Positions 26,265 through 30,543 of a stretch of 38,377 nt of DNA are shown here, in pieces. Position 1 is the first letter of the stretch, and the number at the start of each line of letters is the position of its first letter. This stretch comes from Clostridiaceae bacterium (GTDB lineage: Bacteria > Bacillota > Clostridia > Lachnospirales > Lachnospiraceae), in the NCBI GenBank assembly GCA_021200535.1, contig JAJQGL010000106.1, forward strand, positions 1 to 38,377, given 5' to 3'. The notes under the pieces are model-generated. The model was not told the origin of the DNA. It was given only the letters and a program-made list of their open reading frames with translations, and ran no database searches. A program made the position numbers and the translations under genes.

Positions 26265-26328
26265 GGTGTCGCAGGCTCTGCCAATTTGCGCCATTAGTTG
26301 CTCCCTGCGGTCACAACATGGAGGCGAA
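26265..26328 (+). promoter_or_regulatory. Duplicated 64-nt leader element, copy 2
   Basis: Same element as 23298-23361 with a single substitution (CTCTGCC for CTCCGCC). It again ends 2 nt before a start codon (ATG 26331) and supplies the GGAGG ribosome site. The substitution keeps the possible pairing with the Shine-Dalgarno as a wobble. Sequence outside the block differs completely between the two sites. Confidence 0.7.
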
Positions 26329-26330
26329 TT

Positions 26331-27473
26331 ATGAAAAAACAGAAACGGTGTTTTCAGTGTATGGAATTATATGCAGAAGGACAGATTTGTCCTGTATGCG
26401 GATTTGATCATTCGAAATACCAGTCTTCTTTGGATGCGTTACAGCCAGGGACTATTTTACGGGGAAGATATTTCGTGGGGATGCGCCTAAATCAGAATCA
26501 GATAGAAAATGCCTATTTGGCATGGGACAATTTAGAAGAGACTGCCGTAACGATTCGGGAGTATTATCCAACAGAGCTTGTCCGGCGTGATTTGACAGGG
26601 GAACAGGGGAATAAACTTTTGGTCCCGGAAGGGGAAGCTGGGAAGCGTTATCAAAAGGGAATGAAAGGTTTTGTCAGGGAAGCCAGGGCACTGGTACAAT
26701 TTTCTGCAATGCCAGGTGTTTTAATGGGGAAAGAATTTTTTCATGAAAATAATACTGCCTATTTGATTCAGGAAAGAAGAAAAGGAATCACATTGGCGGA
26801 ATATATACAGGAAAATGGTAAAATGAAGCCGGAGAAGGCATTGCGTGGGATGAAGCCGGTACTTCGTTCTCTCGACAGGCTGCACCGTGCGGGCATATTT
26901 CACCAAAACATAAATCCTGATCATATCATTGTATCAGAAAATGGGGAAATGCTGTTGACGGATTTTGGTACGGTTCGCATGCTGGAATATAGCGGGGAAA
27001 GAGAGCCCGGCCGTTTTCTGCAGAGGGGCTATGCGCCCGCAGAACAGTATCAAATGCAGGAACAGTGTGATGCGGCGGCGGATGTCTATGCGGTCTGTGC
27101 GGTATTTTATTATATGATGACTGCGGAGGCTCCGGAGGACGCTGAAAAAAGAGAGGAAGGAGCGCGGCTTAAGCCGTTTGCAGATTATGGGGTTTCTTTG
27201 TCTAAGGAGCGCCGCCGTGTTCTGAGAAAAGGGCTTGCAGTTTCAAAGGACAGGCGCTGCCAGACCATGCGGGAGCTTTATCAGGCGCTATACGGCTTTG
27301 AAAAAAATAAATGGTTCCTCCGGCTTGGCTGCGGCCTGGCAGTTTTGCTGCTTCTGATTGTTCTGCTTGGAAAAGCAGTTATTTCTCTGGAACAGAATAA
27401 AACTGCCGAGACAAATCAGGTGGAGGATGTGGTTGATTCGTCTCAGCAGGAGGAGAAAAAACCTTCACTATGA
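26331..27473 (+). CDS. Zinc-ribbon membrane Ser/Thr kinase-like protein with degenerate catalytic residues
   Basis: The ATG at 26331 (380 residues) follows the leader's GGAGG. Parts: an N-terminal zinc ribbon (CFQC...CPVC, residues about 8-23); a kinase fold (about 40-310); one membrane helix (about 329-351); and a short tail. The ATP-binding Lys is Arg (R76 in VTIREYYP). The HRD motif reads H191-Q-N193, so the catalytic Asp is Asn, and the metal-binding Asn is H198; only D211-F-G survives. It is therefore probably a pseudokinase or very weak. The stop lies in a 4-nt ATGA overlap with the PASTA frame. PASTA domains normally form the outer part of such kinases, so a frameshifted fusion is likely. 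Confidence 0.85.
   Translation: MKKQKRCFQCMELYAEGQICPVCGFDHSKYQSSLDALQPGTILRGRYFVGMRLNQNQIENAYLAWDNLEETAVTIREYYPTELVRRDLTGEQGNKLLVPEGEAGKRYQKGMKGFVREARALVQFSAMPGVLMGKEFFHENNTAYLIQERRKGITLAEYIQENGKMKPEKALRGMKPVLRSLDRLHRAGIFHQNINPDHIIVSENGEMLLTDFGTVRMLEYSGEREPGRFLQRGYAPAEQYQMQEQCDAAADVYAVCAVFYYMMTAEAPEDAEKREEGARLKPFADYGVSLSKERRRVLRKGLAVSKDRRCQTMRELYQALYGFEKNKWFLRLGCGLAVLLLLIVLLGKAVISLEQNKTAETNQVEDVVDSSQQEEKKPSL
27448..27473 (+). other. Candidate -1 frameshift site joining the kinase-like and PASTA frames
   Basis: AGGAGGAG (27448-27455) is followed at once by six A (27456-27461) read as AAA AAA in the kinase frame. A slip of one base back continues as ACC TTC ACT ATG ACG, directly into the PASTA frame. 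Without the slip the kinase frame ends at TGA (27471-27473). An internal Shine-Dalgarno before an A-run is the arrangement that stimulates -1 frameshifting in dnaX. Confidence 0.5.
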
Positions 27474-27874
27474 CGGATGTGACAGGGCTTCTGTTAAAGG
27501 AGGCAAAAAAGGAAATTGCTGCAAGAAATTCCGAGCTGCTGATTCAGGTAAAGAAAGAATACAGTGAATCGGTAAGGAAGGGATATGTAATCGGGCAGAG
27601 TGTTGCTGCCAATACGACATTTCAGGAAGGGGAGATTGAAACCATTGTGCTGACTGTGAGTAAGGGTTCCCAGAAAGTTGTTGTTCCGGATGTCACCGGG
27701 ATGCTTAAGGAAGATGCGATGAAAAAGATTCACAAGGCAGGATTAAAATATAAAATTGCAGCGTATTCCCAGAATGATACGGTTGCCTTTGGCGCAGTGA
27801 TACGCCAAAAACCGGTTGAGGGAGAGAAAGCAAAAAAAGGAAGCTATGTTAAAATCTGGGTTAGTCTGGGTTAG
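27470..27874 (+). CDS. PASTA-repeat protein or frameshifted C-terminus of the kinase-like protein
   Basis: This 134-residue frame is two PASTA domains: MTDVTGLLLKEAKKEI... to VLTVSKG (1-66), and VVVPDVTGMLKEDAMKKI... to VKIWVSLG (70-134). PASTA domains bind peptidoglycan fragments or lipid II outside the cell. This frame has no signal peptide or membrane helix of its own, so as a separate protein it would stay in the cytoplasm, where PASTA domains have no known use. The preceding frame ends just after a membrane helix, so the pair makes sense as one protein joined in the -1 frame. Separate translation would rely on AGGAGGAG, 14 nt before the ATG, which is rather far. Confidence 0.8.
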   Translation: MTDVTGLLLKEAKKEIAARNSELLIQVKKEYSESVRKGYVIGQSVAANTTFQEGEIETIVLTVSKGSQKVVVPDVTGMLKEDAMKKIHKAGLKYKIAAYSQNDTVAFGAVIRQKPVEGEKAKKGSYVKIWVSLG

Positions 27875-27924: not shown

Positions 27925-27960
27925 ATGGCTGTGCCGGATGCAGCAGAAATGGGGAGGATT

Positions 27961-30543
27961 ATGTCGGATCAGGCAGAAATGAACAGCAAGAAGCCCTTAA
28001 CGGTTGGGATTCTTGCACATGTGGATGCGGGAAAAACAACATTGTCAGAGGCGATATTGTATCTGACCGGGCGGATTGCGCAGCTGGGAAGAGTGGACAG
28101 ACAGGATGCTTATCTGGATACCAATCAGATAGAACGTGAGCGCGGCATTACAATTTTTTCCAAACAGGCAGTATTTCCGCTTGGAGACAGAGCGGTTACT
28201 CTTTTAGATACGCCGGGGCATGTGGATTTTTCGGCAGAGACGGAGCGGACGCTCCAGGTATTGGATTATGCTGTGCTGGTTATCAGTGCGGCAGACGGTG
28301 TTCAGGGGCATACGCTGACGTTATGGAGATTGTTGAAACATTATCAGATTCCGGTATTCTTATTTTTGAATAAGATGGATCAGCCCGGAACAGACCGTAA
28401 ACAGCTTTTAGAGCAGCTGCAGGAGAAATTGCATGAAAACTGCATTGCTTTTGACGGCGATGAGGAATCTTTTTTTGAAACGCTTGCAGTTTGTGATGAG
28501 ACATTGCTGGAAACCTATTTGGCAGAAAAAACGATTCCGGATGAGACGGTGCGTGAACAGATTCGGGCGCGGAAAGTTTTTCCGTGTTATTTTGGTTCTG
28601 CACTAAAGCTTACCGGCGTTGAATCCTTTTTGGCTGGTTTTTTACGATATACGGAAGTGCCGGCCTATGCAAAGGAGTTTCGGGCAAAGGTTTTTAAGAT
28701 TGCGCGGGATGGACAGAATAATCGGCTGACCTATTTAAAAGTGACAGGAGGGATGCTGTCAGTCCGGCAGCAGATAAATGAGGAAAAGGTCAGCCAGCTT
28801 CGCATTTATTCCGGAGAGCGCTTTGAGGCGGTGAATGATGCGGCGGCAGGCACAGTTTGCGCAGTTACAGGATTGAGCACAACGTTTGCCGGACAGGGGT
28901 TAGGAGAAGAACCGGATGCAGAGATTCCGCTTCTGGAACCGGTATTGACCTATGCGCTGGAGCTTCCGGAGGATTGTAATCCCGCAGGCTTTTTGCCGAA
29001 GATGCGGACATTGGAAGAAGAGCAGCCGGAGTTAAAGGTTGTATGGCTGGAGGAAACCGGACAGATTCAGCTGCAGATGATGGGAGAGGTTCAAATTCAG
29101 ATTGTGAAAAGGCTGATTTGGGATCGGTTTCATGTGCCGGCTGATCTGGGAGAAGGCCAGATTATTTATAAGGAAACTATCCGGCGGCCGGTAGAGGGAG
29201 TCGGGCATTATGAGCCGCTTCGCCATTATGCCGAAGTCCATTTGCTGCTGGAGCCTGGGGAACCGGGCAGCGGCGTCCAGATAATGTCTGCGTGCAGTGA
29301 GGACAGGCTGGATAAGAATTGGCAGAGATTGATTCTGACTCATTTGGGAGAAAAAGAGCATACGGGCGTATTGACGGGCGGAGCCATTACAGATATCCGC
29401 ATTACCCTGCTGGACGGGAAAGCACATTTGAAGCACACAGAGGGCGGGGACTTCCGGCAGGCTACTTACCGGGCAGTGCGCCATGGATTAATGAAAGCAG
29501 AAAATGTCCTTTTAGAACCGTACTATCACTTTACACTGGAAGTTCCGACTGAATATATTGGACGGGCTATTACCGATATAGAAAAAATGCATGGAAGCTT
29601 TACGGCGCCGGAACAGCAGGGCGGGAGCAGTGTGCTGAAGGGGACTGCGCCTGTCGCACAAATGCGCAATTACCAGCAAGAGATATCTTCTTATACAAAA
29701 GGGATGGGGAGGCTTTTTTGTACGCTGCAGGGTTACCAGCCCTGCCACAATACAGAAGAGGTATTGGCATCCAATACATACGATCCGGAATTGGATGCAC
29801 AGAATCCACCCGGTTCTGTTTTTTGCAGCCATGGAGCAGGATTTTATGTGCCGTGGCAGGAGGTTGAAGAGTATATGCATTTGCCGTTGTCCATGAAGCA
29901 GCAGGATACAGGGCAGCAGGATTCTCCAGAAGGACAGGGCGGGTATCGGCAGCCTGCATTTAAGGCACAGACAGAGGATTATTTTATGGGGGAAGAGGAA
30001 GTGCTTGCACTTCTGGAGAAAACAGGAAGCGCAAACAGGAAAGGGCAGGCAGCCAGACCGGTCAGAAAGCTGCAGAAACGGGTGGTAGCCGCCCCGCATT
30101 CTCCGAGAGAAAAAAAGAGCAGGGAAAAATATCTTTTGGTGGATGGTTACAATATTATATTTGCATGGAAAGAGCTAAATGAACTGGCCAAAATGAATAT
30201 CGACGCTGCCAGAGGAAGGCTGATGGATATTATGTGTAACTATCAGGCATACCGCCAGTGTACTTTGATTCTGGTGTTTGATGCGTATCAGGTGAAAGGC
30301 AATGTCGGACAGATGCTCCATTACCACAATATCCATGTTGTATATACGAAGGAAGCAGAGACGGCAGATCAGTACATTGAAAAGCTGGCATACCGTATGG
30401 GCGGGGAGTTTGATGTGACAGTTGCGACATCGGACGGGCTAGAACAGCTGATCATACGCGGGCAGGGCTGCAGGCTTATATCGGCAAGGGAATTTAAAGA
30501 AGAAGTACGGGCGGTGGAAGAGCAGATTCAGCGCCTGCTGTAA
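27961..30543 (+). CDS. TetM/EF-G-like ribosomal GTPase fused to a Rae1-type NYN ribonuclease
   Basis: The start at 27961 (860 residues) follows GGGGAGG closely; 27979 is an alternative. Residues about 12-650 are a translational GTPase of the ribosome-protection type: G1 AHVDAGKTT, G2 RGITI, G3 DTPGHVD, G4 NKMD, then EF-G domains II-V, including GGDFRQATYRAVRHGL. After a low-complexity linker (about 650-720), residues 724-860 match Rae1/YacP almost motif for motif: YLLVDGYNIIFAW (acidic D728), ILVFDAYQVKG, YTKEAETADQYIEKLA, VATSDGLEQ, GQG and SARE. Rae1 of Bacillus cleaves mRNA in the ribosomal A site. The fusion implies a factor that docks on the ribosome by its GTPase part and cuts mRNA there (inference). 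A simple tetracycline-resistance role is less likely. Confidence 0.92.
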   Translation: MSDQAEMNSKKPLTVGILAHVDAGKTTLSEAILYLTGRIAQLGRVDRQDAYLDTNQIERERGITIFSKQAVFPLGDRAVTLLDTPGHVDFSAETERTLQVLDYAVLVISAADGVQGHTLTLWRLLKHYQIPVFLFLNKMDQPGTDRKQLLEQLQEKLHENCIAFDGDEESFFETLAVCDETLLETYLAEKTIPDETVREQIRARKVFPCYFGSALKLTGVESFLAGFLRYTEVPAYAKEFRAKVFKIARDGQNNRLTYLKVTGGMLSVRQQINEEKVSQLRIYSGERFEAVNDAAAGTVCAVTGLSTTFAGQGLGEEPDAEIPLLEPVLTYALELPEDCNPAGFLPKMRTLEEEQPELKVVWLEETGQIQLQMMGEVQIQIVKRLIWDRFHVPADLGEGQIIYKETIRRPVEGVGHYEPLRHYAEVHLLLEPGEPGSGVQIMSACSEDRLDKNWQRLILTHLGEKEHTGVLTGGAITDIRITLLDGKAHLKHTEGGDFRQATYRAVRHGLMKAENVLLEPYYHFTLEVPTEYIGRAITDIEKMHGSFTAPEQQGGSSVLKGTAPVAQMRNYQQEISSYTKGMGRLFCTLQGYQPCHNTEEVLASNTYDPELDAQNPPGSVFCSHGAGFYVPWQEVEEYMHLPLSMKQQDTGQQDSPEGQGGYRQPAFKAQTEDYFMGEEEVLALLEKTGSANRKGQAARPVRKLQKRVVAAPHSPREKKSREKYLLVDGYNIIFAWKELNELAKMNIDAARGRLMDIMCNYQAYRQCTLILVFDAYQVKGNVGQMLHYHNIHVVYTKEAETADQYIEKLAYRMGGEFDVTVATSDGLEQLIIRGQGCRLISAREFKEEVRAVEEQIQRLL

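Follow-up and report, generated by a model that had tools for sequence, protein, structure and literature searches.

Tet/EF2-family GTPases carrying a nuclease domain have been described before. According to the available excerpts of Atkinson 2015 (PMC4342817), in ten Clostridiales species the Tet proteins have gained an RNase domain, a YacP-like NYN, maybe as a new route to resistance. In that account the NYN domain was added to a Tet protein and an rRNA RNase ability is suggested; the excerpts give neither unfused partners nor a loss of the nuclease gene from its own slot. The YacP protein itself, Rae1, is presented in the excerpts seen of PMC6613710, PMC10100781 and PMC12320835 as a nuclease that acts on mRNA in the A site, and one of the three treats its entry there as a proposal. 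Tet-type factors also reach the A site, with P509 of Tet(M) meeting C1054 of 16S rRNA (PMC8161019, in part). What guides Rae1 to particular ribosomes is not stated in the Rae1 literature covered, and a covalent partner that also occurs in free form in other genomes makes its recruitment directly testable.

Here, a single frame on the + strand (27925-30543) of a 38,377-nucleotide stretch of DNA from a gut bacterium of the Lachnospiraceae (hereafter the window) was found to encode a translational GTPase together with a Rae1-type nuclease domain. It matches by description the excerpted Tet-NYN proteins of Atkinson 2015 (PMC4342817), combining a Tet/EF2-family GTPase and a YacP-like NYN domain in one Clostridiales protein, and no other description of the fusion was found in a full-text search in which few papers were checked inside, and outside which Leroy 2017 and Condon 2018 lie. 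The architecture is therefore not new; new here are the distinct GTPase subfamily, its unfused copies, an apparent single fusion origin on the GTPase tree, an emptied rae1 slot, and a kept aspartate quartet with partial loss of the Rae1 tail. Rae1 reportedly received its name in 2017, after the architecture had been published in 2015, and the link to Rae1 drawn in the first-pass annotation of this DNA is thus a reinterpretation of a published architecture.

Domain layout and the two halves of the protein

The first ATG of the fused frame, at 27925, gives 872 aa, and a second at 27961 gives 860 aa. The latter is the likelier start, as GGGGAGG lies directly upstream of it. Residue numbers (H99, D740 and so on) count from ATG 27925, in the 872-aa version. 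The Pfam domains GTP_EFTU (1.2e-51), EF-G_D2, EFG_III, EFG_IV and EFG_C lie over residues 25-609 and all pass their cut-offs, and NYN_YacP follows at residues 737-869 (1.2e-48, 165.7 bits against a cut-off of 24.6). Thus, the single-frame fusion of the first-pass annotation is real, with domains of both halves in one 872-aa frame (Table 1), and its intact TetM/EF-G-like GTPase with domains G and II-V is borne out by the Pfam scores and by G motifs kept in relatives.

Table 1. Features of the fused gene, in window coordinates.
Feature	Position	Strand	Basis
Fused gene, Tet/EF-G-type GTPase and Rae1-type NYN	27961..30543	+	ORF, Pfam
G domain: AHVDAGKTT, RGITIFSKQ, DTPGH (H99), NKMD, GSAL	27997..28650	+	Pfam GTP_EFTU, residues 25-242
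Domains II and III	28678..29151	+	Pfam EF-G_D2 252-325, EFG_III 338-409
Domain IV, subfamily tip loops GVGHYEPLRHYAE (425-437) and GKAHLKHTEGGDFR (498-511)	29155..29502	+	Pfam EFG_IV
Domain V	29506..29751	+	Pfam EFG_C 528-609
Post-domain-V element YDxExD..SVFCxHGAGxxVxW, subfamily marker	29779..29874	+	Alignments of relatives
Linker of about 80 aa, rich in E/K/R/A/P/S/G	29881..30129	+	Linker comparison
NYN_YacP (Rae1) domain, D740/D786/D815/D837, without the Rae1 C-terminal tail	30133..30531	+	Pfam, alignments with Rae1

The G motifs are conserved in 73 aligned rows (the window plus 72 loci) and in the 51 rows of alignment A2, and the G3 histidine is also kept across the aligned relatives. The GTPase half shares the domain order G, II-V with the Tet(M)/Tet(W) group, at about 28% identity over this half, and domain order and motifs with EF-G, at about 29% identity to the EF-G of the source genome. 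However, the fused protein scores below the NCBI cut-offs for the tet_protect model NF012153 (404 bits vs 775) and the Tet(M)/(W) group model NF033148 (277 bits vs 1100), and below that for the EF-G model TIGR00484 (303 bits vs 659). Four Tet(M)/Tet(W)-type genes taken from other genomes for comparison do reach a tetracycline cut-off, and the source genome has a separate EF-G (G000:C69). The domain-IV tips GxGHxEPLxHYAE and HxKHTxGGDFRxAxxRAxRxG are common to nearly all 21 fused and unfused rows of alignment A1 (L138 is degenerate and L137 has one change) and differ from those of Tet(M)-type and EF-G rows. The element with SVFCxHGAGxxVxW is likewise present in fused and unfused rows and missing from Tet(M)-type and EF-G rows, in an alignment that contains one junk row; it occupies the position of the C-terminal extension of Tet(M)-type rows, which is replaced here, and the position of SPV in loop III of Tet(M) reads LKH. 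By these scores and alignments, and by the additional element, linker and NYN domain, the GTPase half is classed as a subfamily apart from both the tetracycline protection proteins and EF-G. Public annotation calls some fused and some unfused members tetracycline resistance proteins, and a correct reading of the fusion also bears on resistance surveys.

One fused row, L138 (G383), keeps the NYN aspartates, has degenerate domain-IV tips and has lost the HTEGGDFR stretch. It offers a natural test of the importance of these tips.

The NYN half matches the YacP crystal structures (PDB 5mq8/5mq9) with an E-value of 9e-27 and is 46% identical to B. subtilis Rae1 over 126 residues. D740, D786, D815 and D837 align with D7, D53, D81 and D104 of Rae1, which we take to be its catalytic residues; the D728 of the first-pass annotation is D740 in the present numbering, and D7 of Rae1. 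The quartet is present in 95/95 fused rows and in 41/41 rows sorted as standalone, one of which (L079) is a contig-cut fused gene, and the tail counts below use the other 40. The assignment of this domain to the Rae1/YacP type, with its acidic residues conserved in relatives, therefore stands.

Unlike the fusion, B. subtilis Rae1 is a free protein of 170 aa with a C-terminal tail. The tail beyond Rae1 R137 is 28-35 residues long in all 40 standalone rows, whereas it is shorter than 12 residues in 22 of the 95 fused rows, including the window, where 2 residues are left and the Rae1-like tail of about 30 residues is absent. A looser tail motif, ExxR[RKL], is found in 38/40 standalone vs 25/95 fused rows. 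Judged from these rows, the Rae1 tail has become dispensable in part of the fused group, and we infer a role for it in docking the free enzyme. The stricter EKxRR motif is seen in 21 of the 41 rows sorted as standalone and in none of the 95 fused rows. Its last arginine, R166, is the last R of FEKWRR in B. subtilis Rae1, and R166P is listed there as a suppressor mutation grouped with loss-of-function alleles (PMC6613710, in part). Loss of EKxRR as a product of the fusion is ruled out, since the motif is also missing from the standalone rows of the window's own family, which already have L at this position in an EKxRL-like sequence (7/7). The change at R166 thus predates the fusion.

The two halves are joined by a linker with a median length of 78 aa (range 63-171) and a make-up of the disorder type. 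An IFxxTYG-like short motif occurs in 60 of 98 linkers, a set that counts the window twice (also as L106), and is degenerate in the window itself; it is possibly a docking peptide for some partner.

Occurrence and history of fused and unfused forms

In the window's own family, the Lachnospiraceae, 140 genomes from 140 genera were searched. A match at an E-value of 1e-110 or better was found in 125 of them, 117 of these with a frame of at least 800 aa. G270, G198, G710 and G263 carry an unfused GTPase or a piece of one, and the frames of G276, G214, G738 and G705 are shorter, probably through cutting or splitting in the first three. The class sample comprises 243 genomes: a frame of at least 789 aa is present in 85, the gene is split or cut in 4, and unfused copies occur in 15. 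In the phylum sample the subfamily is found in 12 of 169 genomes, in long frames in all 12, and is set off by score (at least 907 bits vs at most 539 for the next kind). The fusion is widespread in Lachnospiraceae. An assembly join or frame artefact is ruled out by the family frames, and the class frames also count against chance or an assembly join.

NYN_YacP is found once in the source genome and is the only one in 82 of the 85 fused class genomes, a second copy being present in only 3/85, in keeping with the absence of a separate Rae1 where the fusion is present. By annotation, standalone rae1 of B. subtilis lies in a cysS-mrnC-rlmB-rae1-sigH cluster, and the neighbours at 38 standalone Rae1 loci are rlmB-type in 32, sigH in 33, mrnC in 28 and cysS in 27. 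The fused gene lies elsewhere than rlmB-sigH, and none of its neighbour families occurs in more than 11 of 87 loci. The rae1 slot was checked in 26 chosen fused genomes, 25 of which had a sigH match. In 21 of the 25, including the source genome, rlmB adjoins sigH with no NYN frame of at least 60 aa between them; one of the others (G017) has a 62-aa NYN-like frame in the slot, and G072, G001 and G021 have no rlmB within the stretch. In the source genome, mrnC-rlmB-sigH without rae1 is found on C37 and the fused gene on C91. By tblastn, three genomes still show decayed rae1 pieces upstream of sigH: G044, which belongs to the 21, G017 and G001. An empty slot by itself is also expected where a genome simply has no Rae1; taken together with the rarity of a second NYN_YacP, it indicates that Rae1 is for the most part no longer encoded at its own locus in the fused genomes examined. 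This history suggests a nuclease that exchanged its separate gene for a place on the GTPase.

In a GTPase tree of 84 rows (45 fused, 31 unfused and 8 outgroup), the fused rows group into a single clade with full support (SH-aLRT 100). The unfused rows fall outside this clade and none is nested within it, suggesting a single fusion origin on the GTPase tree. In the NYN trees the fused rows also lie on one side of a branch, with weak support (70; 69/54), and together with the Rae1 proteins of own-family genomes in which the genes are apart they form a set at 92/97.

In the order sample the two genes also tend to occur together where they are separate. Among its 80 genomes without the fused gene, an unfused GTPase (called at an E-value below 1e-100) is present in 20 of 60 genomes with a standalone Rae1 vs 0 of 20 without NYN_YacP (Fisher p 0.002, a value that, like the other p values given here, ignores the relatedness of the genomes). 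In the own-family part of this sample the figures are 7/7 with standalone Rae1 vs 0/9 without (Fisher p 9e-5), with the 7 genomes representing four genera and four of the seven belonging to one genus. In the class sample the difference is not significant (10/73 genomes with Rae1 vs 5/81 without, p = 0.17). NYN_YacP is missing from 5 of the 15 class genomes with an unfused GTPase (L160-L164, in G482, G508, G484, G622 and G522), so the rule that the GTPase never occurs without Rae1 failed, and the GTPase would have some work that is independent of Rae1. No common neighbour gene was seen around this Rae1-less GTPase in 4 of these 5 loci. Thus, the order sample links the GTPase to Rae1, and the two are not inseparable.

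Proposed recruitment of Rae1 and competing readings

By its sequence record, the GTPase also exists as a separate protein, and the catalytic domain appears to have been attached to it via a long linker in one fusion event, as seen in the GTPase tree. The explanation that we favour, and hold tentatively, is that the fused protein is a Rae1 permanently tethered to a translational GTPase that would recruit the nuclease to paused ribosomes. The GTP-loaded GTPase would enter the factor site of a paused ribosome with a free A site, where the conserved domain-IV tips would probe the decoding centre. After GTP hydrolysis domain IV would withdraw, and the tethered NYN domain could enter the vacated A site and cut the message at that point; the truncated mRNA would be left to ribosome rescue. 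The modules are predicted to act in turn, since domain IV and the NYN domain would compete for one A site. Simultaneous placement of both in the A site, which the first-pass annotation implied, is unlikely, as domain IV of Tet/EF-G factors occupies the proposed entry site of Rae1. A more general version, which we regard as doubtful, is that the whole GTPase subfamily, as two proteins or one, is the delivery factor of Rae1: a GTP-gated factor that would bring an A-site mRNA nuclease to paused ribosomes, a bacterial no-go-decay factor with probe and nuclease in one machine. In the Lachnospiraceae the pair would have been welded together and have replaced Rae1.

The same two activities could be arranged in other ways. 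EF-G-type factors drive translocation and recycling, and the order of events could accordingly be reversed, with the NYN domain cutting first, like lone Rae1, and the GTPase half then clearing or resetting the ribosome on the truncated mRNA. The anatomy and the occurrence of the separate genes are equally compatible with this order; however, complete loss of the Rae1 tail only among fused rows (22/95 vs 0/40) fits GTPase recruitment somewhat better, and we consider the reversed order quite unlikely. It is also conceivable that the fusion is one of convenience, with two independent ribosome activities in one polypeptide, the GTPase a separate housekeeping factor and the NYN domain an ordinary Rae1. 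The unfused GTPases in class genomes without Rae1 (5/15), the long and variable linker (63-171 aa) and the lack of a common neighbour family (none in more than 11/87 fused loci) would all fit, whereas the retention of a long fused frame in 117/140 family genera and the absence of unfused rows from the fused clade among the tree rows used argue against it, making such a fusion unlikely on balance. A role of the protein in ribosome maturation or rRNA quality control, with rRNA or tRNA as the substrate of the NYN domain, appears most improbable: a proposal to this effect for the NYN domain is cited in the excerpts of PMC4342817, and two ancestral neighbours of rae1, mrnC and rlmB, target 23S rRNA according to partial sources, but Rae1, the nearest characterised relative, is described in the excerpts seen as cutting mRNA in a translation-dependent manner.

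A function in tetracycline-type ribosome protection, or in an antibiotic defence to which an RNase has been added, as in Atkinson 2015, is very unlikely. The GTPase half does belong broadly to the Tet/EF2 family, and resistance via RNase activity is proposed in the excerpts of PMC4342817. However, its scores lie far below the tetracycline cut-offs that the four Tet-type comparison genes pass, and both loop III and the C-terminal extension of Tet(M) are altered. The loop III change alone is a weak argument, because a triple alanine Tet(M) is reported to be active (PMC4750697, in part). The fusion is also near-universal in Lachnospiraceae, and the neighbouring genes in the window encode a kinase, a PASTA protein, a phosphotransacetylase and an AraC-type regulator. 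Tetracycline sensitivity is listed for Roseburia intestinalis M50/1, a strain lacking an acquired tet gene (PMC11913394, in part), which is relevant only if M50/1 carries the fusion. The history of the gene, which combines a single fusion on the GTPase tree, a vacated slot with rae1 remnants in three genomes and intact active sites, supports a recruited nuclease over an antibiotic gene. Overall, the first-pass annotation was thus right about the fusion, its active sites, the Rae1-type NYN domain and its standing in for a separate Rae1; its suggestion of an antibiotic response is not supported, and joint occupancy of the A site is unlikely.

Mobile copies and the window neighbourhood

A mobile resistance gene was also considered and rejected: only 2 of 72,556 plasmid records (518 and 252 kb) cover at least 80% of the fusion, plus two phage-labelled contigs. 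These contigs, MT835563.1 (L228) and MT835514.1, are unannotated fecal sequences that contain the fusion wholly or for the most part, and may be bacterial DNA mislabelled as phage. An unfused subfamily member, 50% identical and annotated as a TetM/TetW family tetracycline resistance protein, is found on the 213 kb plasmid NZ_CP114507.1 of Ligilactobacillus salivarius (L225).

In a PADLOC search of the window the fused protein had no match, and a role as a defence-system gene was discarded; two upstream frames match kinase and PASTA-kinase models. These two frames overlap in the upstream region (26298-27874): the first, which has a kinase domain and a membrane-like stretch at its C-terminus, runs to 27473, and the second, a PASTA frame shifted by -1, opens at 27470. 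A run of six A (27456-27461) comes just ahead of the overlap. The arrangement could reflect a PASTA kinase split in two, a -1 frameshift site or an assembly indel.
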